In this document: piece after piece, positions 7,377 through 48,008 of the stretch
Layout of the letters: each line of letters starts with the position of its first letter
Position numbering within the stretch: position 1 is the first letter of the stretch
DNA from: Clostridia bacterium
GTDB taxonomy: Bacteria; Bacillota; Clostridia; Christensenellales; Aristaeellaceae
Assembly (NCBI GenBank): GCA_017526525.1
Contig: JAFXRG010000030.1
Coordinates: forward strand, 1 to 58,030
Length of the DNA: 58,030 nt
Reading direction: 5' to 3'
Translations under genes and position numbers: made by a program
Notes under the pieces: model-generated
What the model was told of the DNA's origin: nothing
What the model saw: the letters and a program-made list of their open reading frames with translations, nothing else
The model's database searches: none

Positions 7377-9083
7377 ATGGAACTGGAAAAATATATCGGA
7401 TGTTCCGAAGCTTCACGCAAAATTATCCCGGCTGACCTGGTGCTGAAAAACGCCAGTATCGTCAACGTGTTTACCGACCGGGTTGAAAAGGGAAACATTG
7501 CCATCAAAAACGGCATGATCGTCGGCATCGGCGACTATGAAGGCAAAGAAGAAATTGATATCGGCGGACAGTATGTAACCAGCGGGTTCATCAACGCGCA
7601 TATCCATCTGGAATCCACCATGGTGAATCCGCAGGTGCTTGTTGCCCAGGCGGCTATGCACGGCACGACGACCTTTATTGTGGATCCGCACGAGGCAGCC
7701 AACGTTTCCGGCCGGGACGGGATTGATTATATCCTGGACCAGACCAGGCATTCTCCCGCCCATGTTTATGTGATGGCGGCATCCTGCGTTCCCGCAACTC
7801 CGGTGGATGACAACGGATTCCGGCTGACTGCGCGGGAAATGGAGCCCTACCTGAAAAACCGGAGGGTGCTGGGCCTCGGAGAGGTGATGGATACCAAGGC
7901 AGTGATCAACGGGGATCCGGAAATGAACGCCAAACTTCAGCTGTTTGACGGAAAAATCAAGGACGGCCATGCACCCGAATTGTCCGAAACAGAGCTGGCA
8001 GCCTATGTGATGGCCGGAATCACCACGGATCACGAAGGCACCAGCTACGAATACATCATGCGGGAACGCGGAATGGGAATGTTCTGCCTGATCCGGGAGG
8101 GCAGCGCCGCCCGGAACCTGGAGGCAATTGTCAAGGGCATTGTGGAGAACAACACCAATACCGAAGGCTTTGGTTTCTGCACGGACGACCGCCACATTGA
8201 TGATGTGATCCGGGAAGGAGATATTGACAATAACGTGCGGAAGGCGGTCAGCATGGGCATCAGCCCGATTGCCGCGGTAAAAATGGCGACAATCCAGCCG
8301 GCACGCTGTTACGGCCTGCGGAGAACCGGCGCCATCGCACCGGGCTTTGACGCGGATCTCGTGGTATGGGATTCCCTCAAGGATTTCAACGCACAAATGG
8401 TATTTTACAACGGACGCCGCATTGACGATATGCTGCGGATCAAACCGGCGCCCTGCCCGCCGCAGCTGACGGATACCATCCGGTTGGCACAGATTGATCC
8501 GAAAAAGCTGGAAATCCGGCCCGGCCCGGTGCCTTTTCCGGTGATCCGCATGATTCCCGGGGAAATCCTTACCGAACGGGTGGATATGATCCTTCCCGGA
8601 ACAGAGAACGGCGGGGCGTTTGTACCGGACGGAAACCTCAACAAAATTGCGACTTTCGAGCGCCATCACTATACCGGGAAGATCGGGGCCGGCGCCGTGG
8701 TGGGATTCGGCATCCGGGGAGGCGCCATTGCCTCATCGGTTTCCCATGACAGCCACAATATTATCGCCATCGGCGACAATGATGAGGATATCCTGACCGC
8801 AGTGCGGGAACTGGAGAGAACGCACGGCGGATACACGGTGGTGGAACACGGGGAGGTTTTTGACACCCTGGAGCTTCCGATCATGGGACTGATTTCCGAC
8901 CGCAGCTACAGCTATGTCAGCAAAAAAGTGCGGCGTATGACCGCAAAAGCGCATAAGATGGGCGTGCCCAGGGATATGGAACCCTTTATTACGCTCTCTT
9001 TTATGGCCCTGCCGGTTATTCCGGAGATCCGCTGTACCCCGCGGGGCGTTTTTTCCGTCAGCGAATGGAAAATGCTGACCTGA
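7377..9083 (+). CDS. ade: Adenine deaminase
   Basis: A 568-residue metal-dependent amidohydrolase converting adenine to hypoxanthine and ammonia. It has the N-terminal metal motif in INAHIHLESTMV (about residues 72-83), then VDPHEAANVSG, a conserved GLGEVMD and TDDRHIDD, followed by the C-terminal small domain typical of the Ade family (GFGIRGGAIASSVSHDSHNI). Length fits the bacterial family. It has its own promoter. Functionally it feeds adenine into the purine pathway encoded just downstream. Confidence 0.96.
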   Translation: MELEKYIGCSEASRKIIPADLVLKNASIVNVFTDRVEKGNIAIKNGMIVGIGDYEGKEEIDIGGQYVTSGFINAHIHLESTMVNPQVLVAQAAMHGTTTFIVDPHEAANVSGRDGIDYILDQTRHSPAHVYVMAASCVPATPVDDNGFRLTAREMEPYLKNRRVLGLGEVMDTKAVINGDPEMNAKLQLFDGKIKDGHAPELSETELAAYVMAGITTDHEGTSYEYIMRERGMGMFCLIREGSAARNLEAIVKGIVENNTNTEGFGFCTDDRHIDDVIREGDIDNNVRKAVSMGISPIAAVKMATIQPARCYGLRRTGAIAPGFDADLVVWDSLKDFNAQMVFYNGRRIDDMLRIKPAPCPPQLTDTIRLAQIDPKKLEIRPGPVPFPVIRMIPGEILTERVDMILPGTENGGAFVPDGNLNKIATFERHHYTGKIGAGAVVGFGIRGGAIASSVSHDSHNIIAIGDNDEDILTAVRELERTHGGYTVVEHGEVFDTLELPIMGLISDRSYSYVSKKVRRMTAKAHKMGVPRDMEPFITLSFMALPVIPEIRCTPRGVFSVSEWKMLT

Positions 9084-9116
9084 TTTTCCGGCGGCCTTCC
9101 CCCGGGAAGGCGGAAA
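9084..9116 (+). terminator. Weak terminator-like hairpin after ade
   Basis: GCCTTCC and GGAAGGC enclose a CCCG loop, and an outer TTTTCC/GGAAAA pair extends the stem across a small bulge. No uninterrupted T-run follows directly (a TTTTT occurs 8 nt later), so termination may be partial. Confidence 0.35.
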
Positions 9117-9121
9117 ACAAA

Positions 9122-9220: not shown

Positions 9221-10498
9221 ATGAGTAATTATGTTCTGAAAGGCCATATTTGCCATACGCCTGACCTGAACGGCCCGGAAATCCGGGAAAATGCCTATGT
9301 TGTATGCGAAAACGGGATCTGCAGGGGAGTTTTTGACGAGATTCCGGAACGCTTCCGGGGAATTGAAGTGACGGATTGCACGAACCAGCTTATTATTCCG
9401 GGAATGATGGACCTGCATACGCATGCTTCCCAGTTTGCCTTTCGGGGAACCGGAATGGACTGCGAACTGCTGGACTGGCTGAACCGATACGCTTTTCCGG
9501 AAGAAAGCCGGTTTTCGGATCCTGCATACGCGGAAAAAGCCTACGGCCTTTTTGCCCAAACCATGCGGCAGGGAGCGACAACCCGGGTGGTCCTTTTCGG
9601 GACCGTTCATACCGACGCCAGCCTCCTTCTGATGGACTGCATGGAAAAAAGCGGACTGGTCAGTTATGTGGGCAAGGTCAACATGGACCGGAACGCACCG
9701 CCGGAACTGCAGGAGGAAAGCGCATTCCGCTCCGCGGAAGAAACCAGGCGGTTTATCCGGGAGAGCGCTGCGCGGGGATACCGGAAAACAAAACCTATTA
9801 TTACGCCGCGGTTTGTGATCAGCTGCACGGATGAGCTCCTGAAAGAGCTTGGAAAAATCCGGAAGGAACACGGATTGCCGGTACAATCCCATCTGTCCGA
9901 GAATCAGGAGGAAATCAAAACGACCGCAGCGCTGACGCCGGAAGCGGATTTTTACGGGGACGCCTACGACCGGGCGGGGCTTTTCGGACGGGACGGAAAG
10001 ACGGTGATGGCGCATTGCGTTTATTCCGGCGCAGAGGAAACGGAACGGATTCGTGAAAACGGTGTGTGGATTGCCCATTGCCCGGCTTCCAACATGAATA
10101 TCGCTTCCGGAATTGCGCCGATCCGACGGTACCTGGAACAGGGGCTGCGCGTGGGCCTGGGGACGGACATGGCCGGAGGAAATTCGGAGTCCATGTTCCA
10201 GGCCGTGGTGGATGCCATACAGGTGTCCAAGATGTACTGGCGGTACATTGACCGGGACGCGGCGCCCCTGAAGTTCCATGAAGCCTTTTACATGGCAACA
10301 AAAGGCGGAGGCGCGTTCTTCGGGAAGACGGGCAGTTTTGAGGAAGGATATGCTTTTGACGCGCTGGTGCTGGACGATACCTGCCTCCCGTGCGCACGGG
10401 AGATGCCGGTAGCAGAACGGCTGGAAAAAGCATTTTATACACGGATGGACCAGCAGGGAATCCGGATGAAATTTGTCGACGGCGAACGGATTCTGTAA
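9221..10498 (+). CDS. guaD: Guanine deaminase / COG0402 amidohydrolase
   Basis: A 425-residue amidohydrolase expected to deaminate guanine to xanthine. Metal motif PGMMDLHTHASQ is at about residues 58-69, followed by the QSHLSEN motif, MAHCVYS and GLGTDMAGGNSESMF (about 310-325), which is the characteristic guanine-deaminase block. First gene of the long operon; the next start is 20 nt after its stop. The close COG0402 relatives also include other aminohydrolases, but the GGNSxSM block and the purine setting favour guanine. Confidence 0.88.
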   Translation: MSNYVLKGHICHTPDLNGPEIRENAYVVCENGICRGVFDEIPERFRGIEVTDCTNQLIIPGMMDLHTHASQFAFRGTGMDCELLDWLNRYAFPEESRFSDPAYAEKAYGLFAQTMRQGATTRVVLFGTVHTDASLLLMDCMEKSGLVSYVGKVNMDRNAPPELQEESAFRSAEETRRFIRESAARGYRKTKPIITPRFVISCTDELLKELGKIRKEHGLPVQSHLSENQEEIKTTAALTPEADFYGDAYDRAGLFGRDGKTVMAHCVYSGAEETERIRENGVWIAHCPASNMNIASGIAPIRRYLEQGLRVGLGTDMAGGNSESMFQAVVDAIQVSKMYWRYIDRDAAPLKFHEAFYMATKGGGAFFGKTGSFEEGYAFDALVLDDTCLPCAREMPVAERLEKAFYTRMDQQGIRMKFVDGERIL

Positions 10499-10517
10499 TC
10501 AGAGAGGGGGAAAACCG

Positions 10518-12815
10518 GTGTACGCAGGAAAAAGCGTAAAAAGAGTGGATGCCCTGGACAAAGTGACAGGGAGAACCCGATATACAGACGACCTTTGTGA
10601 CCGGAGTGCATATATCGCCAGGATTCTGCACTCGACCATCGCCAACGGACGTGTGGTTTCCATTGACACATCCGAGGCGGAGAAGGTTCCGGGGGTCGTA
10701 AAGATCCTGACCTGCTTTGATCTGAAGGAGAAGCACTATTTTCCGACGGCGGGGCATCCGTGGTCAACGGATCCGGCGCACCAGGACGTGGCGGACCGCC
10801 TGGTCCTGACAGAACGCGTCCGGTTTTACGGGGATGACATCGCAGCGGTCGTTGCGGAGGACGAGGTTGCCGCTGCCCAGGCTTTGCGGCTGATCCACGT
10901 GGAATATGAGGAATATCCGTTTGTGCTGGATGTACAGAAAGCCATGGAAGACGGAGCTCCGCTGCTGCACGAGGAGTACCCCAATAATATTCTCAAACAC
11001 ACCCAGATCCGGAACGGCGACTATGAGAAAGCCATTCAGGAACCCGGCCTGATCCGGGTGGAAGGCTGGTATGAAACGCCGGTGGTGCAGCACTGCCATA
11101 TTGAAAACTTTATCTGCTACGCGGAGATGGAGGGAGACCGGATTCACGTGGTCAGTTCCACCCAGATTCCCCATATTGTCCGGCGGATCGTCGGGCAGGC
11201 GCTGGGAATTGAATGGGGCAGGGTCCGGGTGGTGAAACCCTACATCGGCGGCGGATTCGGAAACAAGCAGGATATCCTGTATGAACCCCTGTGCGCCTGG
11301 CTTTGCATGCAGATCGGGGGTCATCTTGTGAAACTGGATGTACCCCGGGAGGAAACCTTCGTCTGCAACCGGACCCGCCATTCGATCCGGAACCATATTA
11401 TTTCATGGGTCCGGCCGGACGGAACCTACGCGGCCAGGAAACTGGAGTCTTTTTCGGACCAGGGCGCTTATGCTTCCCATGGGCACAGCATCTGCGCCAA
11501 GGGCGCCGGTGCGTTTCCGCAGCTGTATCCCTGCGACAATGTGGAAGTGGACGCCTACACCGTTTTTACCAACAAACCGGTTGCGGGCGCCATGCGGGGA
11601 TACGGAATTCCGCAGGCCATGTGGGCGGTGGAATCCCATACGGAAGACGTGGCGGCAGCTATCGGGGCGGATCCGCTGGAATTTCGCCGGCGCAACCTGA
11701 TGCCGGTGGGGTATAAAGACGACTTCTCCAAAAACGAGAACTATTCGGATTCCTTCAATCAATGCCTGGACAAGGCGATGAAAGCGATTGACTATGAACG
11801 GAAGGTAAAGGAATACGAACATCAGACCGGGGACGTGCGCCGGGGAATCGGCATGGCCGTGTTCTGGTACAACACGGCAGTGTGGCCGATTTCGCTGGAA
11901 TCTTCATCCTGCCGGATGGTGCTGAACCAGGACGGATCCTTCCAGCTGCAGATCGGCGAAACAGAGATCGGCCAGGGCGCCGATACGGCGTTTGCCCAGA
12001 TGGCAGCGGACGTGGTGGGCGTTCCGATGGAAAAAGTACACGTGGTTTCCTGCCAGGATACGGACGTGACCCCCTTCGGAACCAGCGCCTATGCTTCCCG
12101 GCAGACTTACGTGGCCGGCTTCTCCATCCGGCAGACCGGCCTGCTGCTGAAAGAAAGAATCCTGGATTACGCCCACCTGCTGACCCGGATGCCGGTATTC
12201 AACCTGGACATTGAGGATGGAAACATTGTGCGTACCACCGACGGCCGCAAGCTGATGACGCTGGCAGAGCTGGCAACGGAAGCCCTTTACAGCCTGACGG
12301 ACAGCCGCCATATTACGGCGGAAAGCACCTATCAGATCAAATCCAACGCGTATTCTTTCGGCTGTACGATTGCTGAGGTTGAAGTGGATATTCCCATGTG
12401 CAAAGCCCGGCTGCTGAATGTGGTGAACTGCCACGACGCGGGAAAGCTGATCAATCCCGCACTGGCGGAGGCCCAGGTACACGGCGGCATGAGCATGGGA
12501 ATCGGATTCGGGCTTACCGAAAAACTGATTTTTGATGAAAAGACCGGACGCCCCCTGAACAACAACCTGCTGGACTATAAACTGTCCACCTTCCTGGACC
12601 ATCCCAGGCTGATGGCTGAATTTGTTGAGAATCCGGAACCCACCAGCGCCTTCGGAACCAAGAGCCTGGGAGAACCGCCGGCCTGTTCGGTGGCCCCGGC
12701 GATCCGGAACGCGATTTTCCATGCCACCGGCGTGGCAGTGAACAATGCACCGGCGGATGCCCACAATCTGTTCCGGGCATTTACGGAAGCGGGACTTATT
12801 CACGATGAAAGATAA
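10518..12815 (+). CDS. xdhA: Xanthine dehydrogenase, molybdenum subunit XdhA
   Basis: A 765-residue large subunit of a three-component molybdenum hydroxylase, close in length to E. coli XdhA. Aldehyde-oxidase a/b-hammerhead domain at about residues 10-120, then the Mo-binding domain with GGGFGNKQD (about 240), AMRGYGIPQ (about 355) and the C-terminal GTKSLGEPP (about 712) containing the catalytic glutamate. The start is GTG 10518, preceded by AGAGAGGGGG; a longer in-frame ATG at 10473 lies inside guaD. xdhB follows after 14 nt. The likely substrate is hypoxanthine/xanthine, inferred from the family and neighbours. Confidence 0.93.
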   Translation: MYAGKSVKRVDALDKVTGRTRYTDDLCDRSAYIARILHSTIANGRVVSIDTSEAEKVPGVVKILTCFDLKEKHYFPTAGHPWSTDPAHQDVADRLVLTERVRFYGDDIAAVVAEDEVAAAQALRLIHVEYEEYPFVLDVQKAMEDGAPLLHEEYPNNILKHTQIRNGDYEKAIQEPGLIRVEGWYETPVVQHCHIENFICYAEMEGDRIHVVSSTQIPHIVRRIVGQALGIEWGRVRVVKPYIGGGFGNKQDILYEPLCAWLCMQIGGHLVKLDVPREETFVCNRTRHSIRNHIISWVRPDGTYAARKLESFSDQGAYASHGHSICAKGAGAFPQLYPCDNVEVDAYTVFTNKPVAGAMRGYGIPQAMWAVESHTEDVAAAIGADPLEFRRRNLMPVGYKDDFSKNENYSDSFNQCLDKAMKAIDYERKVKEYEHQTGDVRRGIGMAVFWYNTAVWPISLESSSCRMVLNQDGSFQLQIGETEIGQGADTAFAQMAADVVGVPMEKVHVVSCQDTDVTPFGTSAYASRQTYVAGFSIRQTGLLLKERILDYAHLLTRMPVFNLDIEDGNIVRTTDGRKLMTLAELATEALYSLTDSRHITAESTYQIKSNAYSFGCTIAEVEVDIPMCKARLLNVVNCHDAGKLINPALAEAQVHGGMSMGIGFGLTEKLIFDEKTGRPLNNNLLDYKLSTFLDHPRLMAEFVENPEPTSAFGTKSLGEPPACSVAPAIRNAIFHATGVAVNNAPADAHNLFRAFTEAGLIHDER

Positions 12816-12829
12816 GGAGACGGGCCGCC

Positions 12830-13717
12830 ATGTATGATATTAAAGCATTGTATGAAGCTGAAAGCATACCGGATGCCGTGCGGCTGCTGCAGGAACATCC
12901 GGAAGCACAGATTATTGCCGGGGGAAGCGATGTCCTGGTTCAGATTCGCGAAGGAAAACGGGCCGGGGCGGAACTGGTGAGTATCTACGGAATTGACGAG
13001 ATGCGCGGCGTATGCCTGGACGGGGAAGGCGCCATCCGGATCGGATCACTGACAAGCTTTTCGCACATTGCCGCTTCCCCTGTGATCCGGGAGCACATTC
13101 CGGTGCTGGGTGAGGCGGTCAGCCTGGTGGGCGGACCGCAGATCCGGAACATCGGAACGATCGGCGGGAATACCTGCAACGGCGTAACAAGCGCAGATTC
13201 CGCCTCCACGCTGTTTGCCTGGGACGCTGAGGTGGAGCTGACGGGTCCGGAAGGAATCCGCCGGATTCCGATCCGGGAATTCTATATCCGGGCGGGAAAG
13301 GTGGACCTGAAGCCGGCAGAGCTGCAGACAGCGATTCTCATTCCGAAAAAAGCCTACGAGGGCTATCACGGCAACTATATCAAGTATGCCATGCGGGAAG
13401 CCATGGATATTGCCAACCTGGGCTGCTCGGTGAACGTTTCCCTGACCGGTGACAAAAAAACGATCCGGGACGTCCGGATTGCTTACGGCGTGGCGGGACC
13501 GATTCCGATGCGGGCAGAGACGGCGGAAAAAACGGCCAGGGGGCGCGAAGTGAATCCGGAAACCGTGAAAGCGTTTGCCCGGGCCGTTCTTGAGGATATT
13601 CATCCCCGGGACAGCTGGCGGGCGGCAAAGGCTTTCCGGGAGCATATTGCGGTGGAAATGGCAAAACGCGCCCTGACGACATCCATTACCCTGGCTGGAG
13701 GTGAAATCCGTGAATAA
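12830..13717 (+). CDS. xdhB: Xanthine dehydrogenase, FAD subunit XdhB
   Basis: A 295-residue FAD-binding subunit of the CO-dehydrogenase flavoprotein family. Typical FAD motifs are AGGSDVLVQIREGK (about residues 31-44) and IRNIGTIGGNTCNG (about 105-118), followed by the C-terminal CODH FAD domain. It takes electrons from the XdhC iron-sulfur centres, normally to NAD+. No CxxC [4Fe-4S] insertion of the HcrB type is present. It overlaps the next gene by 8 nt. Confidence 0.94.
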   Translation: MYDIKALYEAESIPDAVRLLQEHPEAQIIAGGSDVLVQIREGKRAGAELVSIYGIDEMRGVCLDGEGAIRIGSLTSFSHIAASPVIREHIPVLGEAVSLVGGPQIRNIGTIGGNTCNGVTSADSASTLFAWDAEVELTGPEGIRRIPIREFYIRAGKVDLKPAELQTAILIPKKAYEGYHGNYIKYAMREAMDIANLGCSVNVSLTGDKKTIRDVRIAYGVAGPIPMRAETAEKTARGREVNPETVKAFARAVLEDIHPRDSWRAAKAFREHIAVEMAKRALTTSITLAGGEIRE

Positions 13718-14219
13718 GCAGTACAAACTGGTGCGCTGTACCATCAACGGGAAAGAACGGGAGACCATGGTGGATGTTCGCGCTTCCCTGACGGATATGC
13801 TGCGGAACGATTTCCGGCTGACCAGCGTGAAAAAAGGCTGCGAGGTGGGAGAATGCGGCGCATGCAACGTGCTGATCAACGGGGAGTGCTTCAACTCCTG
13901 TATTTACCTGGCAGCGTGGGCGGACGGAAAAGAGATCCTGACCCTGGAGGGACTGGAAGGTCCGAACGGGGAAATATCCGACATCCAGCAGGCGTTCATT
14001 GACGAGGCGGCGGTTCAGTGCGGCTTCTGTACGCCGGGAGCGATCATGAGCGCGGTGGAAATCCTGAACGAGGGGCGGGAACTTTCGGACGAGGAAATCC
14101 GGATCCGGATGTCCGGGCACCTCTGCCGCTGCACCGGGTATGAAAACATTTTCCGCGCTGTAAAGAAAACGATGCTGAAACGGCTGGCAGCCGCATCCGG
14201 AAACCGGCAGGGTGAATAA
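13710..14219 (+). CDS. xdhC: Xanthine dehydrogenase, 2x[2Fe-2S] subunit XdhC
   Basis: A 169-residue iron-sulfur subunit. The plant-type ferredoxin motif is GCEVGECGACNVLINGEC, and the second cluster motif is QCGFCTPG followed by CRCTGY. I chose GTG 13710 since GGAGG lies 8 nt upstream; another GTG at 13701 overlaps that ribosome site. It overlaps xdhB, so the three subunits are translationally coupled in A-B-C order, as in E. coli. This is the small structural subunit, not the XdhC maturation factor encoded at 31430. Confidence 0.94.
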   Translation: MNKQYKLVRCTINGKERETMVDVRASLTDMLRNDFRLTSVKKGCEVGECGACNVLINGECFNSCIYLAAWADGKEILTLEGLEGPNGEISDIQQAFIDEAAVQCGFCTPGAIMSAVEILNEGRELSDEEIRIRMSGHLCRCTGYENIFRAVKKTMLKRLAAASGNRQGE

Positions 14220-14258: not shown

Positions 14259-15584
14259 ATGCTGCTGATCGGAAACGGACGGGTGATTACCCGGGACCCG
14301 GAGAAACCCTACCTGGAAAAAGGCGCGGTGGTTACGGACGATGCGAAGATTGCCGCGGTGGGGGAAGAGGAGGAACTGAAGAAAAAGTATCCAGAGGCGC
14401 AATATGTGGACGCGGACGGCGGGGTGATTATGCCCGGGCTGATCAACGCCCACACGCATATTTATTCCGGACTGGCCCGGGGACTCTCCATACCGGGCTA
14501 CAACCCGACAAACTTTTTTGAAATCCTCGACGGCATGTGGTGGCATATTGACCGGCACCTGACGCTGGACGGAACACGGGCTTCCGCCTATGCGACGATC
14601 CTGGACTGTATCCGAAACGGCGTAACGGCCATTTTTGACCACCATGCCAGCTTCGGGGAAATTCCGGGATCCCTGTTTGCCATCCGGGATGTGGCGAAAG
14701 AGACCGGGATGCGCGCCTGCCTTTGCTATGAAGTATCCGAACGGGACGGGGAGGAAAAGACCCGGCAGGGCATCCGGGAAAACGCGGATTTTGCGAAATG
14801 GGCAAAGGAAGCGGATGACCCGATGATCAAAGCCATGTTCGGCGGGCACGCACTTTTTACGATTTCGGACAGAACTTTTGAGGAAATGGTCAAAGCCAAC
14901 GACGGCATGACCGGCTTCCACATCCATGTGGCGGAGGGCATGAACGACGTGTACGACAGCCTGCGGAATTACGGCTGCCGCCCGGTGAACCGGCTGCTGT
15001 ACAACGGAATCCTGGGGGACAGGACGCTGCTGGGACATTGCATTCATGTGAGTCCGGCCGAAATGGATATCATCCGGGAAACCGGGACCATGGCGGTGAA
15101 CAATCCCGAATCCAACATGGGCAACGCGGTGGGATGCGCCCCGGTGCTGCAGATGATGAAAAAGGGAATCACTGTGGGCATGGGCACGGATGCCTACACC
15201 CACGATATGCTGGAAAGCATGAAAGTATTCCTGATTATCCAGCGGCACAACGCCGCCATGCCGAACGTGGCCTGGGGCGAGGACGTGGCCATGCAGTTTA
15301 CAAACAACCGGATCATTGCGGAGAAGTATTTCGGGGTTCCCCTGGGAATCCTGAAGGAAGGCGCGGCGGCGGACGTGATCGTGATGGATTACAAACCCTT
15401 TACTCCTTTCAGCGACGCCAACATCGACGGGCATATGCTGTTCGGCATGAACGGACGGAACTGCCGCACGACGATCATCAACGGACGGCTTCTTTATCAC
15501 AACCGCCGGTTTACCGCGCTGGATGAAGACCGCATCAACGCCTGGACGATGGAACAGAGCAAAAAACTGTGGGCGGAACTCTGA
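14259..15584 (+). CDS. ssnA: Putative aminohydrolase SsnA
   Basis: A 441-residue COG0402 amidohydrolase matching the SsnA family, linked with selenium-dependent molybdenum hydroxylases. Motifs: PGLINAHTHIYSGLARG (about 58-74), FHIHVAEG, LLGHCIHVS, and GMGTDAYTHDM (about 307-317). It belongs to the anaerobic urate-degradation gene set; its exact step is not settled by the sequence. The next gene, ygfK, starts 27 nt downstream, as in E. coli where ygfK and ssnA are also adjacent. Confidence 0.92.
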   Translation: MLLIGNGRVITRDPEKPYLEKGAVVTDDAKIAAVGEEEELKKKYPEAQYVDADGGVIMPGLINAHTHIYSGLARGLSIPGYNPTNFFEILDGMWWHIDRHLTLDGTRASAYATILDCIRNGVTAIFDHHASFGEIPGSLFAIRDVAKETGMRACLCYEVSERDGEEKTRQGIRENADFAKWAKEADDPMIKAMFGGHALFTISDRTFEEMVKANDGMTGFHIHVAEGMNDVYDSLRNYGCRPVNRLLYNGILGDRTLLGHCIHVSPAEMDIIRETGTMAVNNPESNMGNAVGCAPVLQMMKKGITVGMGTDAYTHDMLESMKVFLIIQRHNAAMPNVAWGEDVAMQFTNNRIIAEKYFGVPLGILKEGAAADVIVMDYKPFTPFSDANIDGHMLFGMNGRNCRTTIINGRLLYHNRRFTALDEDRINAWTMEQSKKLWAEL

Positions 15585-15610
15585 CTGCCGGAACGTTAAG
15601 GAGAATGACG

Positions 15611-40242: not shown

Positions 40243-41421
40243 ATGCAGAGAATTTACCTGGATCAGGCCAGCACCAGTTTTCCGAAGGCGCCGGGCACCG
40301 CGGAGGCGGTATTCCGGTATATGACAGAATGCGGGTGCAACATCAGCCGCGGCGGATACAAAGGCGCCTACGCGGCGGAGGAACTGGTCTATGATACCCG
40401 GACGCTGCTGTGTCGCCTGTTCGGATGCCGGGACGATGACCCGAAAAAGGCCGTGCTGACCCATAACGTGACAGAAAGCCTCAATATACTGATCAAGGGA
40501 ATGCTGAAGCCGGGAGATCATGTTCTGGTTTCTTCCATGGAACACAATGCCGTGATGCGGCCCCTGGGCCAATGCGCAAAACAGGGTGTCCGTTTTACCC
40601 GGGTTCCCTGCGCGGAGGACGGAACCATGAATCCGGCGGACCTGGAAGCAAGGATCGAAGAAAATACCCGGGCGGTGGTTATGCTCCACGCGAGCAATGT
40701 ATGCGGAACGATCCTGCCGGCGGCGGAGATCGGCAGGATCTGCCGACGGAAAGGGATCCGGTTTATCCTGGATACGGCACAGACGGCAGGAATTGTGCCG
40801 CTGGATATGGCGGCCATGGGCGTTGACGCGCTGGCGTTCACCGGACACAAAGGACTGCTGGGCCCCCAGGGGACCGGCGGATTCCTGATCAGGGAAGAGC
40901 TGGCCGCGGAAATGGAGCCGCTGATTTCCGGCGGCACCGGAAGCATCAGCCATACGGAGGAGGTTCCGGATTTCCTGCCGGACCGGTTTGAGGCGGGAAC
41001 GATGAACCTTCCGGGTATCGCCGGACTGCATGCTTCCCTGACCTGGCTGACGGACCGGCCGGAAGGGAGCATCCTGCAGCATGAGCTGCATCTGACGGAG
41101 CAATTCCTCCGGGGAATGGAGGCCCTGGAGGAAGAAGGGCTGATCCGCGTGACCGGAAAGCACGGCACGGAAGGCAGGACCGGGGTGGTGTCCATTCTGC
41201 CGCTGCATACGGATCCGGCGGAGCTGGCCTTCCGGCTGGATGAACAATACGGAATCGCGACACGGGTGGGGCTGCACTGCGCGCCTGCGGCCCATCAGAC
41301 CCTGGGAACCTGGCCGACAGGAACCGTCCGGTTCTCCTTCGGGATTTTCAATACGGAAGAAGAAACAGACGAGGCGGTTCGGGCAGTCTCCGCACTGTGC
41401 CGGAAGGAAAGGCGGGAATGA
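40243..41421 (+). CDS. Cysteine desulfurase / selenocysteine lyase family protein (EF2568 type)
   Basis: A 392-residue aminotransferase class V protein. PLP lysine K203 lies in TGHKGLLGPQGTGG, the PLP aspartate in ILDTAQTAG, and the catalytic cysteine C346 in GLHCAPAAHQTLGT. This matches the EF2568-like family, which in many genomes sits with SelD, YqeB and selenium-dependent hydroxylases. It may mobilise S or Se from cysteine or selenocysteine to the carriers or to SelD. The lysR gene begins 4 nt after the stop. Confidence 0.92.
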   Translation: MQRIYLDQASTSFPKAPGTAEAVFRYMTECGCNISRGGYKGAYAAEELVYDTRTLLCRLFGCRDDDPKKAVLTHNVTESLNILIKGMLKPGDHVLVSSMEHNAVMRPLGQCAKQGVRFTRVPCAEDGTMNPADLEARIEENTRAVVMLHASNVCGTILPAAEIGRICRRKGIRFILDTAQTAGIVPLDMAAMGVDALAFTGHKGLLGPQGTGGFLIREELAAEMEPLISGGTGSISHTEEVPDFLPDRFEAGTMNLPGIAGLHASLTWLTDRPEGSILQHELHLTEQFLRGMEALEEEGLIRVTGKHGTEGRTGVVSILPLHTDPAELAFRLDEQYGIATRVGLHCAPAAHQTLGTWPTGTVRFSFGIFNTEEETDEAVRAVSALCRKERRE

Positions 41422-41424: not shown

Positions 41425-42342
41425 ATGGAAATGAAGCATCTTCTTTCCTATACGACGGTGGTGCGGCTGGGCAGCTTCAGCCGTGCGGCCGGGGAGCTTT
41501 ACATTGCCCAGCCGACCATCAGCCTCCATGTTCGCCAGCTGGAAGAGGAGCTGGGGACAAAACTTCTGATCCGGACGACGAAAAGCCTGGAAGTTACGGA
41601 AACGGGCCGGGAGGTCTACGACTACGCGGTCAGCATTCTGCAGCTGAAGGACCGGATCCGGGAAAGATGCTCCGGCGGAGAGCGGGGCATTGTACGGCTG
41701 GGAGCTTCCACGATTCCTTCCGCCTACATCCTGCCGGAGGTTCTGCCCGCGTATGTGAAAACGCATCCGACTACCTATTTCACCATCGACCAGGGGGACA
41801 GCCGGTCCGTGACGCAAAAACTGGCGGAAGGCGTCATTGACATCGCGCTGACCGGCATGAAGCCGGCTTTGCCGGATCTTGCCGCAGAACCGTTTTACGA
41901 GGATACCGTTGTGATTATTACGCCGGTCCGGGAACCGTTCCTGTCCATGAAGGAAAAAGGAAACGCATCGCTGGAGAAGCTTTTTGCGGAACCGGTTATT
42001 CTTCGGGAAGAGGGAAGCGGAAGCCTGAAGGCAGCCAGCGCCTTCCTGGCCAACGCAGGTTTTTCCGAGGAACGGCTGCGGATCGCGGCGCGGACAAACG
42101 ATCCGGAAGCGATCAAAAACCTTGTGGCGCAGGGACTCGGTATTTCCATGATCTCCTCCAAGGCTGCCGAGGACTACAGCCGGGAGAACCGGCTGCTTGT
42201 TTTTTCCTTTCCGGAAATTGCCGGACGCCGTCTGCTGTATATCGTGACCAAAAAGCATGCAGTCCTGTCGGAAGGGGCTGAGAGATTCCTGCGGCATCTG
42301 CGGCAATTTTATGCTGCGCCGGAAACCAGACGAAGAATGTGA
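41425..42342 (+). CDS. LysR-family regulator linked to selenium metabolism
   Basis: A 305-residue LTTR. HTH at about residues 3-60 (LGSFSRAAGELYIAQPTISLHVRQLEEELG), then a substrate-binding-like domain beginning RLGASTIPSAYILP. Its placement directly behind the EF2568-type desulfurase fits the selenium-associated LysR group. Candidate targets are the divergent yedE/desulfurase promoters and xpt, where an LTTR-like inverted repeat lies. The effector is unknown. Confidence 0.9.
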   Translation: MEMKHLLSYTTVVRLGSFSRAAGELYIAQPTISLHVRQLEEELGTKLLIRTTKSLEVTETGREVYDYAVSILQLKDRIRERCSGGERGIVRLGASTIPSAYILPEVLPAYVKTHPTTYFTIDQGDSRSVTQKLAEGVIDIALTGMKPALPDLAAEPFYEDTVVIITPVREPFLSMKEKGNASLEKLFAEPVILREEGSGSLKAASAFLANAGFSEERLRIAARTNDPEAIKNLVAQGLGISMISSKAAEDYSRENRLLVFSFPEIAGRRLLYIVTKKHAVLSEGAERFLRHLRQFYAAPETRRRM

Positions 42343-42416: not shown

Positions 42417-42429
42417 AATGTTCGGATTT
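42417..42429 (-). promoter_or_regulatory. Perfect PurR box in the xpt leader
   Basis: The minus strand reads AAATCCGAACATT, which matches AWWWCCGAACWWT at all 13 positions. It lies just downstream of the predicted transcription start. An imperfect facing half (CCAGAAC) lies next to it on the plus strand, closer than the usual PurR box spacing. Confidence 0.55.
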
Positions 42430-42441
42430 TTGGAGGAAATG

Positions 42442-43026
42442 ATGGAAGCGCTGCGCCGGATGATCCTGGAAAAAGGCAAGGGAATCGGGAATGATATCGT
42501 AAAAGTGGACATGTTCCTGAACCATCGGATTGACACAAACCTTCTTTTTCAGATGGGAGAGGCCTGGGCGGAGGAGTTTCGCGCCGAAAAACCGGAAATG
42601 GTGCTGACCGTCGAAGCAAGCGGAATTGCCATGGCCGTGGCGGCAGCCCATGCGCTGGGAGACATCCCGGTGGTTTTCGCCAAAAAAAGCGCCACCATGG
42701 TCCAGAACGAGGATGTGGTGCAGGCACCGGTCTATTCTTTCACCCATAAAACGCAAAACATGATCCGGATTGAGCGGCAGTACCTGCCGGAAGGCTCCCG
42801 GGTCCTGATCATTGACGACTTTCTCGCGGACGGCCAGGCGGCCCGGGGGCTGATCAACCTGTGCTGGCAGCAGGGCGCGATTGTGGTCGGGGTCGGCATC
42901 GCCGTGGAAAAAGGCTTCCAGCCCGGCGGAAAAGCCCTTCGGGAATCCGGGATCCATCTCAAGTCTTTGGCAGTCGTTGACGGAATACAGGACGGCAACA
43001 TCGTCCTGAGGCCGGAAGAAGACTGA
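42442..43026 (+). CDS. xpt: Xanthine phosphoribosyltransferase
   Basis: A 194-residue type I PRTase converting xanthine and PRPP to XMP. It starts MEALRRMILEKGKGIGNDIV like Bacillus Xpt, and has the PRPP loop VLIIDDFLADGQAARGL (about 123-139) and VEASGIAMAVAAA. GGAGG lies 5 nt before ATG 42442; ATGs at 42418 and 42439 are less likely. Its presence beside a purine importer supports salvage of xanthine when it is not degraded. Confidence 0.95.
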   Translation: MEALRRMILEKGKGIGNDIVKVDMFLNHRIDTNLLFQMGEAWAEEFRAEKPEMVLTVEASGIAMAVAAAHALGDIPVVFAKKSATMVQNEDVVQAPVYSFTHKTQNMIRIERQYLPEGSRVLIIDDFLADGQAARGLINLCWQQGAIVVGVGIAVEKGFQPGGKALRESGIHLKSLAVVDGIQDGNIVLRPEED

Positions 43027-43072
43027 TCCAATAGAAATCCATTTTCCAGAAGAAAGAGGAGGAAAAGAACAC

Positions 43073-44251
43073 ATGAAGAAGATTATTGCTCTGGTTCTGG
43101 TTCTTGCCCTGTGCCTGGGCGCCGTGAGCGTCATGGCAGAGGGAACCAAGGTGAAGGTTGGCTTCATCTTCCTGCATGATGAGAACTCCACCTATGACCT
43201 GAACTTCATCAACGCCGCGAAAGAAGCCTGTGAGAAGCTGGGCGTCGAGTACGTGCTGAAGCCCAACATCGGCGAGAGCGAAGCCTGCTACGAAGTGGCT
43301 GCTGACCTGGCGGATGCCGGCTGCAACATCGTCTTCGCCGACAGCTTCGGCCATGAAGACTACATGATCCAGGCTGCCAAGGAATATCCGAATGTACAGT
43401 TCTGCCATGCTACCGGCACCAAGGCCCACACCGAAGGCCTGGCAAACTTCCACAATGCTTTCGCCAGCATCTACGAAGGCCGCTACCTGGGCGGCATCGC
43501 AGCCGGCATGAAGCTGAACCAGCTGATTGAAGAAGGCAAGATCACCGCTGACCAGGCCAAACTGGGCTACATCGGCGCCTTCACTTACGCGGAAGTTATC
43601 TCCGGCTACACCTCCTTCTTCCTGGGCGCACGGAGTGTCTGCCCCTCCGCCACGATGGAAGTGACCTTCACCGGTTCCTGGTACGATCCCGCACTGGAAC
43701 AGGAAGGCGCTATCAAACTGATCAATGACAAATGCGTTGTGATTTCCGAGCATGCTGACTCCATGGGTGCTCCTTCCGAGTGCGAGAAGAACAACATCCC
43801 CTTCGTGTTCTACAACGGCTCCGCCAAGGATGCCTGCCCGAACACCTACATCGTAGCCAGCCGGATCAACTGGGCTCCCTACTTTGAGCTGATCATCAAC
43901 GCTGTGGCCAACGGCGAAACCATCCCCGTTGACTATACCGGAGACATCGCTTCCAACAGCGTGCTGCTGGCCGAGCTGAACGAAACCGCTGCCGCTCCCG
44001 GAACCGCCGAAGCCATTGAAGAAGCCAAAGCCAAAATGCTGAACGGCGAGCTGAAGGTTTTCGACACCGCCACCTGGGCCAAGGACGGCGCTGCCCTGAG
44101 CAGCTACATGGCTGACGTGGACACCGATGCTGCCTACACCCCTGACACCGAAGTGATCGCGGACGGTTATTTCCATGAATCCGAATACCGCAGTGCTCCT
44201 TACTTCGATGTGCAGATTGACGGCATCACGCTGCTGGACACCGCATTCTGA
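43073..44251 (+). CDS. BMP-family (PnrA-like) nucleoside/purine-binding protein
   Basis: A 392-residue solute-binding protein with a signal peptide ending near VMA-EG. Typical BMP features: KVGFIFLHDENSTYDLNFI, IGESEACYE, FADSFGHEDYMI and YLGGIAAGMK. Unlike most BMP proteins there is no lipobox cysteine. Its codon use is heavily biased to GCC, AAC, CTG and GGC, more than the neighbours, suggesting high expression. AGGAGG precedes the ATG. Purine nucleosides or bases are likely ligands, from family and context. Confidence 0.91.
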   Translation: MKKIIALVLVLALCLGAVSVMAEGTKVKVGFIFLHDENSTYDLNFINAAKEACEKLGVEYVLKPNIGESEACYEVAADLADAGCNIVFADSFGHEDYMIQAAKEYPNVQFCHATGTKAHTEGLANFHNAFASIYEGRYLGGIAAGMKLNQLIEEGKITADQAKLGYIGAFTYAEVISGYTSFFLGARSVCPSATMEVTFTGSWYDPALEQEGAIKLINDKCVVISEHADSMGAPSECEKNNIPFVFYNGSAKDACPNTYIVASRINWAPYFELIINAVANGETIPVDYTGDIASNSVLLAELNETAAAPGTAEAIEEAKAKMLNGELKVFDTATWAKDGAALSSYMADVDTDAAYTPDTEVIADGYFHESEYRSAPYFDVQIDGITLLDTAF

Positions 44252-44267
44252 TTGAACAACTACAGCA

Positions 44268-44296
44268 AAGGGTCCCGGTGTGTTGCTGGGACCCTT
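44268..44296 (+). terminator. Intercistronic hairpin after the BMP gene (attenuator-like)
   Basis: AAGGGTCCC pairs with GGGACCCTT, extended by two inner pairs, around a short loop; CCTCTCATTTTCC follows. This may be a partial terminator that keeps the binding protein more abundant than the transporter. Confidence 0.5.
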
Positions 44297-44308
44297 CCTC
44301 TCATTTTC

Positions 44309-44355
44309 CGCAAAGGGCAGTACAGACAAGCGAGCTTTCTGTATTGCCCTTTGTG
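44309..44355. repeat. Long stem-loop (18-bp stem)
   Basis: AAAGGGCAGTACAGA pairs with TCTGTATTGCCCTTT, with one G-T wobble, around an 11-nt loop; three outer pairs extend it to 18 bp. It lies between the BMP gene and the ATPase gene. It could be a REP-like element or an mRNA-stabilising structure; no second copy is seen in this window. Confidence 0.6.
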
Positions 44356-44382
44356 AAAACCAAAAAGCAGGAGGACGGGCGT

Positions 44383-45918
44383 TTGAAAACATCGGCTGCA
44401 GTGGAAATGCGGGACATCACCAAAAGATTCGGATCCAATGTGATCGCGAATGACGAAGTTTCGCTGGACATTTACCGCGGGGAGATCCTGGCACTGCTGG
44501 GGGAGAACGGAAGCGGAAAGACTACCCTGATGAACATGCTGGCAGGAATCTATTTTCCTGATTCAGGCACGATTCGTGTTAACGGCAGGCCGGTGGTGAT
44601 CTCTTCCCCGAAAAAGGCCCAGGAGCTTGGTATCGGCATGATCCACCAGCATTTTAAGCTGGTGGATGTACTGACCGCTGCCGAAAACATCATTCTGGGC
44701 CTGGAAGGGAAGATGGACCTGAAAAACGCCGCCCGGCAGATCAGGAAGATCTGCGACACTTACGGCTTTGAGGTGGACCCGGACCAGAAGATCTACAACA
44801 TGTCCGTTTCCCAGAAGCAGACGGTTGAAATCGTTAAGGTGCTGTACCGCGGGGCGGACATCCTGATCCTGGATGAACCGACCGCCGTGCTGACTCCGCA
44901 GGAGACCGAGAAGCTCTTCACGGTGCTGAGGAACATGCGGGATGACGGAAAGGCCATCGTCATTATCACCCACAAACTGAACGAGGTTGAAGCCCTGTCG
45001 GACAGAGTGACCGTCCTGCGGACCGGCCGGTTTATCGTCTCGATGGAAACAAAGAAAACCAATGCCCAGGAAATGACCAACATGATGGTCGGCCGGACGG
45101 TTTCCCTGAACATCAACCGGACGGAGGTGACAGACCGGCAGCTGCGGCTGGAACTCCGGGACGTTTCCGTGCGGAATGAAGAAGGCCTGCTGAAGCTGGA
45201 CCATGTTTCCTTTGAAGCCTACGGCGGAGAGATCCTCGGAATTGCCGGCATTTCCGGCGCCGGGCAGAAGGAACTTCTGGAATCGATTTACGGCCTGCAG
45301 CGCCCGGAGGAAGGGAGTATCCTGTTTCATTCCCCGGACTCGGACGAGGTTATCGACCTGAAAAAGAAAAATACCAACGAGATCCGTAAGCTGGGCCTGT
45401 GCCTGAACTTTGTGCCGGAGGACCGGCTGGGGATGGGCCTGGTCGGCAGCATGGACATTACGGACAACATGATGCTGCGCAATTACCGGAGCGGCCGGTA
45501 CGGATTCCTGAACCGGAAGAAGCCCAGGGAGCAGGCGGAACAGATTATCCGCGACCTGGGAGTGATTACCCCCGGCACGAGCATGCCGGTGCGCCGGCTC
45601 TCCGGCGGGAACGTGCAGAAGGTGCTGGTGGGCCGGGAAATTGCCCAGAACCCGAAATTGCTGATGGCCGCCTATCCGGTACGCGGGCTGGATATCAATT
45701 CCTCCTACACGATCTACAACCTGCTGAACCAGCAGAAGGAGCAGGGCGTGGCGGTCATCTATGTGGGCGAGGACCTGGATGTGCTGATCGAGCTGAGCGA
45801 CCGGATCCTGGTGCTGTGCGGCGGAAAGGTCAGCGGAATTGTGGACGGAAGAACCGCGGACAAACAACAGATTGGCATGCTGATGACTCGGGTGGGAGGT
45901 GAACAGGATGGCCGGTAA
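44383..45918 (+). CDS. Nucleoside ABC transporter ATP-binding protein (double NBD)
   Basis: A 511-residue tandem ATPase of the YufO/NupA and sugar-type class. NBD1: Walker A GENGSGKT, signature-like MSVSQKQTVEIVKVL, Walker B LILDEPTAVLTPQE. NBD2 has a degenerate Walker A (GISGAGQKE), signature LSGGNVQK and Walker-B-like LLMAAYPVRGLDI with no DE pair, typical of the family. The start is TTG 44383, since AGGAGG lies 8 nt upstream; the longer open frame from 44278 would run through both hairpins. Confidence 0.92.
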   Translation: MKTSAAVEMRDITKRFGSNVIANDEVSLDIYRGEILALLGENGSGKTTLMNMLAGIYFPDSGTIRVNGRPVVISSPKKAQELGIGMIHQHFKLVDVLTAAENIILGLEGKMDLKNAARQIRKICDTYGFEVDPDQKIYNMSVSQKQTVEIVKVLYRGADILILDEPTAVLTPQETEKLFTVLRNMRDDGKAIVIITHKLNEVEALSDRVTVLRTGRFIVSMETKKTNAQEMTNMMVGRTVSLNINRTEVTDRQLRLELRDVSVRNEEGLLKLDHVSFEAYGGEILGIAGISGAGQKELLESIYGLQRPEEGSILFHSPDSDEVIDLKKKNTNEIRKLGLCLNFVPEDRLGMGLVGSMDITDNMMLRNYRSGRYGFLNRKKPREQAEQIIRDLGVITPGTSMPVRRLSGGNVQKVLVGREIAQNPKLLMAAYPVRGLDINSSYTIYNLLNQQKEQGVAVIYVGEDLDVLIELSDRILVLCGGKVSGIVDGRTADKQQIGMLMTRVGGEQDGR

Positions 45919-47020
45919 AGAAAAACAGCCGTTAATCCGCATCACCCGAAGGGCCGCCCTGCCCTGGTACCAAAGCTGGGGAATCCGGGCCGGCGCCGTC
46001 CTGATATCGGTGCTCGTATGCGCACTGATCACTGTTGTGACGACCGGGGAGAACCCGCTGAGCGTGTTTGAAACGATCTTTAACGCTTCCTTTTCCACAC
46101 AGCGGCGTATCTGGGTGCTGTTCCAGAACATTGCGATGCTGCTGAGCGTTTCCCTGGCAGTGGTTCCGGCATTCAAAATGCGCTTCTGGAACCTGGGCGG
46201 CGAAGGACAGATCCTGGCCGGCGCCCTGGCGACCACCGCCTGCATGATCTGCCTGCGGGAAACGCTGCCCAACGGCCTGCTGATTCCGGTCAGCTTCATC
46301 TGCAGCATTGCCGCCGGTGCCCTGTGGGGCCTGATTCCGGCGTTTTTCAAGGCCAAATGGGGAACCAATGAAACCCTGTTTACCCTGATGATGAATTATA
46401 TCGCAATTCAGCTGGTATCCTTTTTCATCATCGTATGGGAAATGCCCAAGGGCGCCGGGCAGATCGGCATTATCAACCAGAGCAGCGGGATCGGCTGGCT
46501 GCCGGCGATCGGCGGTCAGAAATACCTGCTGAACATCCTGATTGTCGCGGTGCTGACCGGGCTCATGTTCATCTACATGAACTATTCCAAGCATGGATAT
46601 GAAATCACTGTGGTGGGCGAGAGCGTGCGAACCGCGCAGTATGCCGGCATCAAGGTTGAAAAGGTCATTATCCGGACCATGATCCTTTCCGGCGCGCTGT
46701 GCGGACTGACCGGATTCCTCCTGGTGAGCGGAACAGACCATACGCTGACCACGACGATTACCGGAGGACGGGGCTTCACCGCCGTTATGGTAGCATGGCT
46801 GGCAAAGTTTAACCCGATCTGGATGATCCTGACATCCTTCCTGCTGGTTTTCCTGGATAAAGGCGCAGGAGAAATTTCCACGAATTTCGGCCTGAACCGG
46901 TCTTTCTCGGATATCCTGACCGGGGTGATCCTGTTCTTTATCATCGGCAGCGAGTTCTTCATCAACTACCGGATGAGCTTCCGGCATTCCGCCAAAAAGG
47001 AGGAAGAACGCCATGTTTGA
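45908..47020 (+). CDS. Nucleoside ABC transporter permease (NupB-like)
   Basis: A 370-residue membrane protein with about ten hydrophobic helices and the FKMRFWNLGGEGQILAGAL motif of BPD_transp_2 permeases. ATG 45908 is preceded by GGGAGG at 8 nt; GTG 45899 is also in frame. It overlaps the ATPase gene by 11 nt and the second permease by 8 nt. Confidence 0.93.
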   Translation: MAGKEKQPLIRITRRAALPWYQSWGIRAGAVLISVLVCALITVVTTGENPLSVFETIFNASFSTQRRIWVLFQNIAMLLSVSLAVVPAFKMRFWNLGGEGQILAGALATTACMICLRETLPNGLLIPVSFICSIAAGALWGLIPAFFKAKWGTNETLFTLMMNYIAIQLVSFFIIVWEMPKGAGQIGIINQSSGIGWLPAIGGQKYLLNILIVAVLTGLMFIYMNYSKHGYEITVVGESVRTAQYAGIKVEKVIIRTMILSGALCGLTGFLLVSGTDHTLTTTITGGRGFTAVMVAWLAKFNPIWMILTSFLLVFLDKGAGEISTNFGLNRSFSDILTGVILFFIIGSEFFINYRMSFRHSAKKEEERHV

Positions 47021-48008
47021 TTTCCTCTCCTTTATTCCACGGGCTGTTATGCAGGGAATTCCGCTGCTTTACGGCAGCACAGGCGAAACGCTGACGGAGA
47101 AATCCGGCAATCTGAACCTTGGTATTCCCGGAATCATGTATGTCGGTGCCATCAGCGGCGTTATCGGCGCATTTGCCTATGAATCCTCACTTACGAACCC
47201 GGAAGCATTCAGCGGTGTCCTGGCGGTGGCGATCACCCTGGTTTCGACAATCCTGGGGTCCCTGCTGATGGGACTGCTGTACTGCTTCCTGACGGTGACG
47301 CTGCGGGCGAACCAGAACGTAACCGGCCTGGCGATGACCACTTTCGGCGTAGGCTTCGGCAACTTCTTCGGCGGCAGCCTGATTAAGCTGAGCGGAAACA
47401 GCATGCCTTACCTGGCCCTGAGCAGGACGAGCATGGCTTTCCGGACAGCGATGCCCGGAGCGGATACCACCGGCTGGTTCGGGCAGCTGTTCCTTTCCTA
47501 CGGATTCCTGGCTTACCTGGCGATCATCCTTTCACTGGTTGCTTCCTTCGTGCTGAAACGGACCCGGATCGGCCTGCACCTGCGGGCCGTGGGCGAGAAT
47601 CCGGCGACCGCGGACGCAGCGGGCATCAGCGTGAATCGGTATAAGTACACGGCGACCTGCATCGGCAGCGTCATCGCGGGACTCGGCGGACTGTACTATG
47701 TGATGGACTATGCCAGCGGAATCTGGAGCAACAACGCTTTCGGCGACCGCGGGTGGCTGGCCATCGCCCTGGTGATTTTCACCATCTGGCGGCCGGTCCG
47801 GGGCATTTTTTCCGCATTCCTGTTCGGCGGACTGTACATCCTGCATATGTATATCCCGACGGGCACGGACCTGGCGGTCAAGGAGCTGTACAAGATGGCA
47901 CCGTACGTGGTGACGATCATCGTGCTGGTGTTCTCCAGTATCCGGAACAACCGGGAGAAACAACCGCCGGCCAGCCTGGGACTCAGCTATTTCCGCGAGG
48001 AAAGGTAG
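47013..48008 (+). CDS. Nucleoside ABC transporter permease (NupC-like)
   Basis: A 331-residue BPD_transp_2 permease. The early segment ETLTEKSGNLNLGIPGIMYVGA and AVGENPATADAAGISVNRYKY are characteristic of the nucleoside uptake subfamily. It completes the BMP-ATPase-permease-permease importer. It ends 81 nt before degV. Confidence 0.94.
   Translation: MFDFLSFIPRAVMQGIPLLYGSTGETLTEKSGNLNLGIPGIMYVGAISGVIGAFAYESSLTNPEAFSGVLAVAITLVSTILGSLLMGLLYCFLTVTLRANQNVTGLAMTTFGVGFGNFFGGSLIKLSGNSMPYLALSRTSMAFRTAMPGADTTGWFGQLFLSYGFLAYLAIILSLVASFVLKRTRIGLHLRAVGENPATADAAGISVNRYKYTATCIGSVIAGLGGLYYVMDYASGIWSNNAFGDRGWLAIALVIFTIWRPVRGIFSAFLFGGLYILHMYIPTGTDLAVKELYKMAPYVVTIIVLVFSSIRNNREKQPPASLGLSYFREER

Follow-up and report, generated by a model that had tools for sequence, protein, structure and literature searches.

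A patchy island in a Clostridia genus groups genes for purine degradation with genes for selenium and molybdenum supply

We analyzed a stretch of 58,030 nucleotides from a gut Clostridia bacterium of the Aristaeellaceae (contig JAFXRG010000030.1, here C58; assembly of 2.76 Mb, 64% complete), and we refer to this whole contig as the window. The stretch from about 7.2 to 42.34 kb of the window is an accessory island with 31 genes (35 kb). It has been inserted upstream of the resident operon for Xpt and a BMP-type ABC importer. We propose that this is a purine-degradation island with selenium and molybdenum supply, and we give the whole mechanism, as proposed here, a probability of about 75%. In one unit, the island combines purine deamination with two molybdenum hydroxylases and the urate pathway, together with a large part of the genes that supply selenium and molybdenum.

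Gene families were called by profile search against the NCBIfam and Pfam cut-offs. Between 7377 and 48008, the list of open reading frames holds 36 genes of named families, 32 on the plus strand and 4 on the minus strand. The original prediction had placed about 35 such genes in one block; every family it named was found, and the MocA/YgfJ-like, ModE-type helix-turn-helix (HTH), XdhC/CoxI and selenium LysR genes were additional to its list. Scores were far above chance, for example 1228 bits on TIGR03311 (cut-off 830) and 365 bits on TIGR03309 (cut-off 220), while the best matches of GuaD, the MocA/YgfJ-like protein, the ModE-type HTH protein, XdhC/CoxI, ModC and the TusA-like protein fell below their NCBIfam cut-offs. 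Both PF02738 molybdenum-hydroxylase domains found in the assembly lie inside the block.

What we show is which genes are present and in what order, where the island ends on either side and how it is distributed; the enzyme reactions in our model come from earlier studies of related organisms. The first island gene encodes the adenine deaminase Ade (7377-9083; TIGR01178, 532 bits, over cut-off), followed by a GuaD-like guanine deaminase (9221-10498; TIGR02967, 340.7 bits, below the cut-off of 375.4); these would convert adenine and guanine to hypoxanthine and xanthine. XdhA, XdhB, which is the flavin adenine dinucleotide (FAD) subunit, and XdhC, which is the iron-sulfur (FeS) subunit (10473-14219; NF043082, NF043083 and NF043084, all over cut-off), would oxidize hypoxanthine and xanthine to urate. 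An XdhAC-type molybdenum hydroxylase, with fused FeS and Mo domains and no FAD subunit (23573-26176; TIGR03311), would then reduce urate to yanthine (2,8-dioxopurine). Reduction and opening of the ring would fall to YgfK, by homology an NAD(P)H-dependent yanthine reductase (15569-18601; TIGR03315, 1307 bits), and the aminohydrolase SsnA, predicted to open the reduced purine (14259-15584; NF005540 and TIGR03314). The hydantoinase HyuA (26196-27596, scanned from 26004; TIGR02033), the carbamoyltransferase YgeW (21338-22537; TIGR03316), the hydrolase YgeY (19894-21285; NF009555) and the diaminopropionate ammonia-lyase YgeX (18673-19878; TIGR03528) would take the opened ring to diaminopropionate and on to pyruvate and ammonia, and YgeW together with the carbamate kinase ArcC (22601-23542; TIGR00746) would provide ATP from carbamoyl phosphate.

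The reductive urate set of YgfK, SsnA, HyuA, YgeW, carbamate kinase, YgeY and YgeX thus lies within 14259-27596, with every member over its cut-off. The reductive route described in the literature runs from urate to yanthine and then through YgfK, SsnA, HyuA, YgeW, YgeY and YgeX to pyruvate; the enzymes reported for its first step are XdhD-YgfM in E. coli and XdhAC in C. sporogenes (PMC12507026, PMC12990295), and YgfK is reported to reduce yanthine in vitro (PMC12507026). The window holds every step of this route, with an XdhAC-type first enzyme, plus XdhABC as an oxidative arm. Weighing against the proposed mechanism, our profile searches recognized no dedicated urate or xanthine permease among the island genes. 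At Rfam gathering scores we found no purine riboswitch; tRNAs were the sole Rfam matches.

On the selenium side, the selenophosphate synthase SelD (28819-29862; TIGR00476), YqeB (29852-30685; TIGR03309) and the XdhAC-type hydroxylase are all over cut-off within 7.2 kb. Judged by its genes, the locus is of the selenium-dependent molybdenum hydroxylase (SDMH) kind: SelD and YqeB stand beside the hydroxylase, and YqeC (30645-31316, minus strand, convergent with yqeB; PF19842; TIGR03172, 131.6 bits, cut-off 73.05) is present. Haft and Self proposed SelD, YqeB and YqeC as markers of this selenium-molybdenum cofactor trait (PMC2276186). Further genes of this group encode a DUF3343-like Se/S carrier (38554-38790, minus strand; PF11823, Se_S_carrier, over cut-off), a TusA-like protein (38787-38993, minus strand; PF01206 over cut-off, TIGR03527 58.5 of 110 bits), the putative selenium transporter YedE (39003-40091, minus strand; TIGR04112, 504 bits, over cut-off), a desulfurase or selenocysteine-lyase-like protein (40243-41421; TIGR01977 over cut-off) and a selenium-metabolism LysR regulator, which is the last island gene (41425-42342; NF040786 over cut-off). 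YedE, LysR_Se and DUF3343 have been tied to selenium by comparative genomics (PMC5322559). In our model, the desulfurase, the TusA-like and DUF3343-like proteins, YedE and SelD would supply selenophosphate, and YqeB and YqeC would help to put selenium on the molybdenum site, presumably of both hydroxylases; an effect of yqeB has been reported in a relative (PMC11448449). The tie to SDMH enzymes and to anaerobic urate breakdown, which had been claimed before, is supported by these findings.

Profile searches for SelA, MoaE and MOSC covered 54 genome handles with XdhAC or YqeB, corresponding to 52 distinct genomes because G041 is G004 and G043 is G011 (identical coordinates); 48 of the 80 XdhAC loci entered them and 32 were left out. 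SelA (TIGR00474) was matched in 17 of the 54, with no match in our genome (G000, 64% complete) or in the other two island carriers, G004 and G011. Such misses are unsafe, and an orphan SelD is not established, because the E. barkeri assembly (G058) also gave no match although this organism is reported to use selenocysteine (PMC2276186). The ModE-type HTH gene (28432-28815, 127 amino acids; TIGR00637, 65.7 bits, below the cut-off of 98.5) lies directly upstream of selD, a position that could link molybdate sensing to selenium supply.

The molybdenum cofactor (Moco) genes complete the island's content. They encode the molybdate importer ModA, ModB and ModC (35969-38499; TIGR01256 and TIGR02141 over cut-off, the ModC matches below), MoaA and MoaC, which would convert GTP to cyclic pyranopterin monophosphate (33491-34992; TIGR02666 and TIGR00581 over cut-off), a MOSC-MogA fusion (34982-35941; PF03473, 44.8 bits, and PF00994, over cut-off), a MoeA-like protein with a MoCF domain (32482-33504; PF00994 over cut-off), a MocA/YgfJ-like molybdopterin cytidylyltransferase (27607-28224; TIGR03310, 105.8 bits, below the cut-off of 186.45) and an XdhC/CoxI maturation protein (31430-32485; PF13478 and PF02625 over cut-off, TIGR02964 151 of 162 bits). 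Together these would synthesize the cofactor and load it. The MoeA-like protein ends in C-x2-C-x2-C-x4-C, a possible metal or sulfur/selenium site. This four-cysteine motif is present in 11 of 13 aligned sequences; the printed sequences of L096 and L097 stop before it.

We also observed that the island is patchy within the genus. YqeB passed the cut-off in three of the 25 genomes of the genus (our own, G004 and G011); elsewhere in the order, three of 16 genomes had such a match. In eight genomes of the genus that lack a YqeB match over cut-off, we inspected the region on the right-hand side of IorAB. In seven of them (G001, G002, G008, G010, G012, G020 and G022), xpt and the BMP importer stand at this place with no island; in the eighth, G017, the contig ends before the xpt region. 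The order in G012 (IorAB, GGDEF-EAL, xpt, importer, DegV) equals that of the window minus 7.2-42.34 kb, and its island-free DNA (allele L112) aligns with the window from 42341 rightwards. As they occur without the island in seven of the eight, xpt and the importer (42418-48008; NF006671 over cut-off, PF02608) are genus backbone, and we rejected a single unit reaching to 48008. The claim of one locus from 7377 to 48008 therefore held for the island genes and failed in its extent, the island ending near 42341.

All three carriers share the right border between LysR_Se and xpt. The left border, between GGDEF-EAL and Ade, is common to the window and G011, where the island likewise lies between GGDEF-EAL and xpt and IorAB is on another contig; in G004 the left border could not be located, a point against our model. 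Our data support the view that cofactor genes are kept beside the enzymes, with three relatives showing them at one place. The original prediction had named scattered copies in close relatives as a sign against it, and these were found in part: the G011 island is without the ModE-type, XdhC/CoxI, MoeA-like, MoaA, MoaC and MOSC-MogA genes, and in this genome the Moco genes lie outside the island, with one MOSC gene on another contig. Neither the G004 nor the G011 island yielded a YgeX match, so the last pathway step may differ there. Each of these two islands holds two genes of the pyridoxal phosphate (PLP) fold absent from the window, one threonine-synthase-like (PRK08197 over cut-off) and one weakly cysteine-synthase-like (L118 6958-9696 in G004; L123 15821-18625 in G011). 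They may replace the diaminopropionate ammonia-lyase, or YgeX may be elsewhere. The absence of the island from most members of the genus offers a natural comparison.

The lasting interest of the locus lies in a gap in its cofactor supply, the molybdopterin synthase, and in a MOSC protein as the candidate to fill it. The completeness claimed for the block does not extend to this step, nor to purine uptake by a dedicated permease: the block has no MoaD or MoaE, our 64% complete assembly gave no match for MoaE (PF02391) or MoaD (TIGR01682), and MoaE was likewise unmatched in G004 and G011. As a control, PF02391 was run on 14 well-known genomes and detected MoaE in 11. Among the 54 handles with XdhAC or YqeB, PF02391 matched 7 and MOSC (PF03473) 43 (41 distinct genomes); four had a MoaE-like protein alone, three had both and seven had neither.

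We then counted these families in a class-wide sample of 393 genomes, for which 90% completeness was requested and in which our own genome was included nonetheless. MoaC occurred in 94 genomes, MOSC in 88 and MoaE (PF02391) in 20. MoaC and MOSC were found together in 86 (Fisher p 1.7e-74, with no correction for relatedness; these tests take genomes as independent, which genomes are not). Among the 299 genomes without MoaC, MOSC appeared in two, both below or near threshold (E 1.6e-4 and 3.6e-4). A MoaE-like protein was present in 17 of the 94 MoaC genomes: 13 of the 86 that have MOSC and 4 of the 8 that lack it (p 0.033). Four MoaC genomes had neither; one of them, G406, has a short MOSC piece beside moaC (tblastn). 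The MoaD search covered 80 of the 94 MoaC genomes and gave no match over cut-off and 11 weak ones.

The MoaE matches themselves are unusual. On PF02391, the 19 over-cut-off matches reached no more than 30-41 bits, and A1, a profile model that we built from divergent MoaE-like sequences, gave every one of them 177-208 bits; all over-cut-off matches in the class sample are of the divergent kind. Divergent MoaE overlooked by the Pfam model was rejected as an explanation, as A1 matched 19 of the 393 genomes and none was new. In an alignment with E. coli MoaE, whose residues His103, Lys119 and Lys126 we take to matter for function, the divergent family retains the Lys119 position but has another residue in place of His103, and its sequences stop short of Lys126. 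We likewise rejected a hidden MoaD between moaA and moaC: read by eye, the gap in L084 and L093 is a MobB-like domain joined to MoaC, and in L097 it listed just one short open reading frame on the opposite strand. This domain, either fused with MoaC or its immediate neighbor, lies at 1235-2206 in L084 and at 3977-4591 in L093.

MOSC lies close to MoaC in most of the 86 genomes that have both: within 300 bp in 46 and within 6 kb in 68, and farther away or on another contig in 18. MOSC-MogA fusions were read in the window, L091, L094, L095 and L109 (from G004), and a MoaC-MOSC fusion was read in L098. An open-frame length of 299-314 amino acids is shared by the MoaC and MOSC matches of 11 genomes in the class sample, as would be the case for a MoaC-MOSC fusion; of these, L098 alone was read. 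In L084, L086-L089, L101 and L104, a MogA-MoaE-like fusion follows moaC, at the place that MOSC-MogA takes in the window, and G042, the genome of L004, has MogA-MoaE-like and no MOSC match. In E. barkeri (L035, G058), MOSC lies beside moaA and MoaE gave no match; its nicotinate hydroxylase is reported to carry molybdopterin cytosine dinucleotide (PMC2276186). For E. faecalis, all four of EF1392-EF1395 (MoaC, MoaA, MOSC and a MogA-type gene) were reported as fitness-critical or important in transposon sequencing (Tn-seq; PMC7701990).

A structure model of the window MOSC domain had a predicted local distance difference test (pLDDT) score of 90.3. Its nearest solved folds were YuaD and YiiM, with mARC weaker, and a pterin-binding fold is therefore plausible. 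Three cysteines (C110, C114 and C123, in GK-x-C-[HY]-x2-C ... G-x-C-[IV]-M-P) were invariant in 12 of 12 aligned sequences. Tentatively, and at rather less than even odds, we hypothesize from the co-occurrence and the fusions that the MOSC part of MOSC-MogA is a non-orthologous molybdopterin synthase, in the island and in Clostridia, which would turn the MoaC product into molybdopterin and pass it to the fused MogA. The invariant cysteines may carry the sulfur, perhaps via an iron-sulfur cluster fed by sulfide or a desulfurase, without MoaD. Under this hypothesis, the divergent MoaE-like domain fused to MogA would fill the place of MOSC in some relatives.

Some genomes and loci speak against a clean swap of this kind: in G045 and G033 a lone MOSC away from recognized Moco genes coexists with a MoaE-like protein, and L103 has its MoaE-like gene on the opposite strand from mogA, 2.6 kb away. 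Lone MoaE-like or lone MOSC genes apart from recognized Moco genes were also seen in L090, L085 and L127-L129. It is an evenly balanced question whether MOSC-MogA is instead unrelated to the synthase, with MOSC a molybdoenzyme or late cofactor sulfurase and the synthase an unrecognized or unassembled MoaD/MoaE. The MOSC relatives YiiM, YcbX and mARC are molybdoenzymes, and a 2018 survey classes MOSC proteins as such (PMC6147048); since these relatives and the nearest folds of our model are of this type, co-occurrence of MOSC with MoaC would be expected for a cofactor user too. The incompleteness of our assembly, the MoaE-like protein in 13 of the 86 MOSC genomes, the 7 of 54 handles with neither protein and the 11 weak MoaD-type matches all point the same way. 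On the other side, if MOSC were just one molybdoenzyme, we would not expect to meet it in 86 of the 94 genomes with MoaC, next to moaC and mogA or fused to them, while all MoaE matches over cut-off belong to one divergent type.

In the open-licence literature, we found the idea of MOSC as synthase once, in one sentence on Dehalobacter, stating that MoaD and MoaE are lacking and that their role may be taken by two MOSC proteins (PMC4751268). The class-wide MoaC and MOSC counts and the MoaE-like swap are new relative to that statement. Like the window, Dehalobacter is described with MOSC in a Moco cluster without molybdopterin synthase genes; it differs in having two MOSC proteins, whereas the window's is fused to MogA. 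A missing synthase has also been noted for acetogens (PMC5039349), and for Geobacter metallireducens the gap is called 'unknown', with moaD and moeB present (PMC2700814). One candidate for the synthase emerges from the association of MoaC with MOSC across the class, from the fusions of MOSC to the preceding and following steps and from the MoaE-like swap. If true, gut and acetogenic Clostridia would differ from E. coli in one step of the synthesis of their molybdenum or tungsten cofactor.

The XdhAC-type enzyme of the purine route had been labeled XdhD, a name that we do not keep: the protein is over cut-off on TIGR03311, yet its score on the E. coli XdhD model, TIGR03313, is just 252 bits against a cut-off of 1102. 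By its context, it is probably a urate-to-yanthine reductase. Among the 80 relatives' loci, 43 had at least 8 kb on both flanks; of these, XdhAC was accompanied by YgfK in 27 and by SsnA in 28. The fit to C. sporogenes XdhAC, reported as a first enzyme with fused FeS and Mo domains, covers architecture and context. In a FastTree tree of XdhAC, which served solely to place the window protein and is no test of transfer, this protein groups with L003-L005 (98 for the grouping with L004).

We consider it unlikely, though a real contender, that both hydroxylases are oxidative, the XdhAC-type enzyme being a second, selenium-dependent xanthine dehydrogenase and urate joining the YgfK route via another enzyme. 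Several points weigh against the reductive assignment here. TIGR03311 carries the name of a selenium-dependent xanthine dehydrogenase, and E. faecalis EF2570, of the XdhAC type, is reported as exactly such an enzyme (PMC11448449). Moreover, 16 of the 43 loci have no YgfK near XdhAC; with EF2570, this means that the XdhAC-type enzyme could run oxidatively. Finally, neither the window protein nor any of the 80 relatives has the insertion that contains Glu606 of E. coli XdhD, the residue proposed to orient urate, and we rejected this residue as a signature for the type. Because EF2570 is reported as a xanthine dehydrogenase and the Glu606 insertion is missing, the reductive assignment is no more than likely. 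It is favored by the XdhABC enzyme with its FAD subunit already in the window, by C. sporogenes XdhAC, which is reported to reduce urate to yanthine (PMC12990295), and by the two PF02738 proteins, neither of which is a TIGR03313-type urate reductase over cut-off. A selenate-reducing or selenium-detoxifying system in place of purine catabolism is very improbable: TIGR03315 is still named putative selenate reductase subunit, but YgfK reduces yanthine in vitro (PMC12507026) and its neighbors are purine deaminases and urate-pathway hydrolases.

The locus is of a known kind, the purine and selenium-molybdenum-hydroxylase type of E. coli and E. faecalis, and is unusually complete. In E. coli K-12, the cluster order is xdhABC-ygeV-ygeWXY-hyuA-yqeABC-mocA-ygfK-ssnA-ygfM-xdhD-xanQ-guaD; tblastn in L083 and annotation placed XdhABC, YgeW, YgeX, YgeY, HyuA, YqeB, YqeC, YgfK, SsnA, GuaD, carbamate kinase and MocA in both. 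XdhD-YgfM, XanQ and UacT belong to E. coli alone, whereas the window has an XdhAC-type enzyme without YgfM and no such permease that we recognized, and adds SelD, YedE, the TusA-like protein, DUF3343, the desulfurase and the Moco and molybdate genes. According to Table 1 of PMC2276186, E. faecalis EF_2563-EF_2582 shares selD, yqeB, yqeC, a TusA-related gene, a desulfurase/lyase, ygfJ and the EF_2570-type hydroxylase, and further ygeW, carbamate kinase, ygeX, ygeY, ygfK and ssnA. Its MoaC, MoaA, MOSC and MogA-type genes are reported elsewhere in the genome (PMC7701990); in the window they lie inside the block, with MOSC fused to MogA. Clostridioides difficile is described with a hydroxylase without YgfM, the SsnA, HyuA, YgeY and YgeX steps, and yqeB and yqeC; it differs in that UacX and UacY replace YgfK and YgeW/carbamate kinase, and in that yqeB, yqeC and selD are scattered (PMC12507026, PMC11448449).

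Finally, the BMP importer near the island occurs in two forms (window 43073-48008; L124 1658-6596; L119 7217-12416). Compared with the window importer, the BMP and permease proteins of G011 are 87-91% identical and its ATPase 77%, and those of G004 and of island-free genomes are 46-64% identical.

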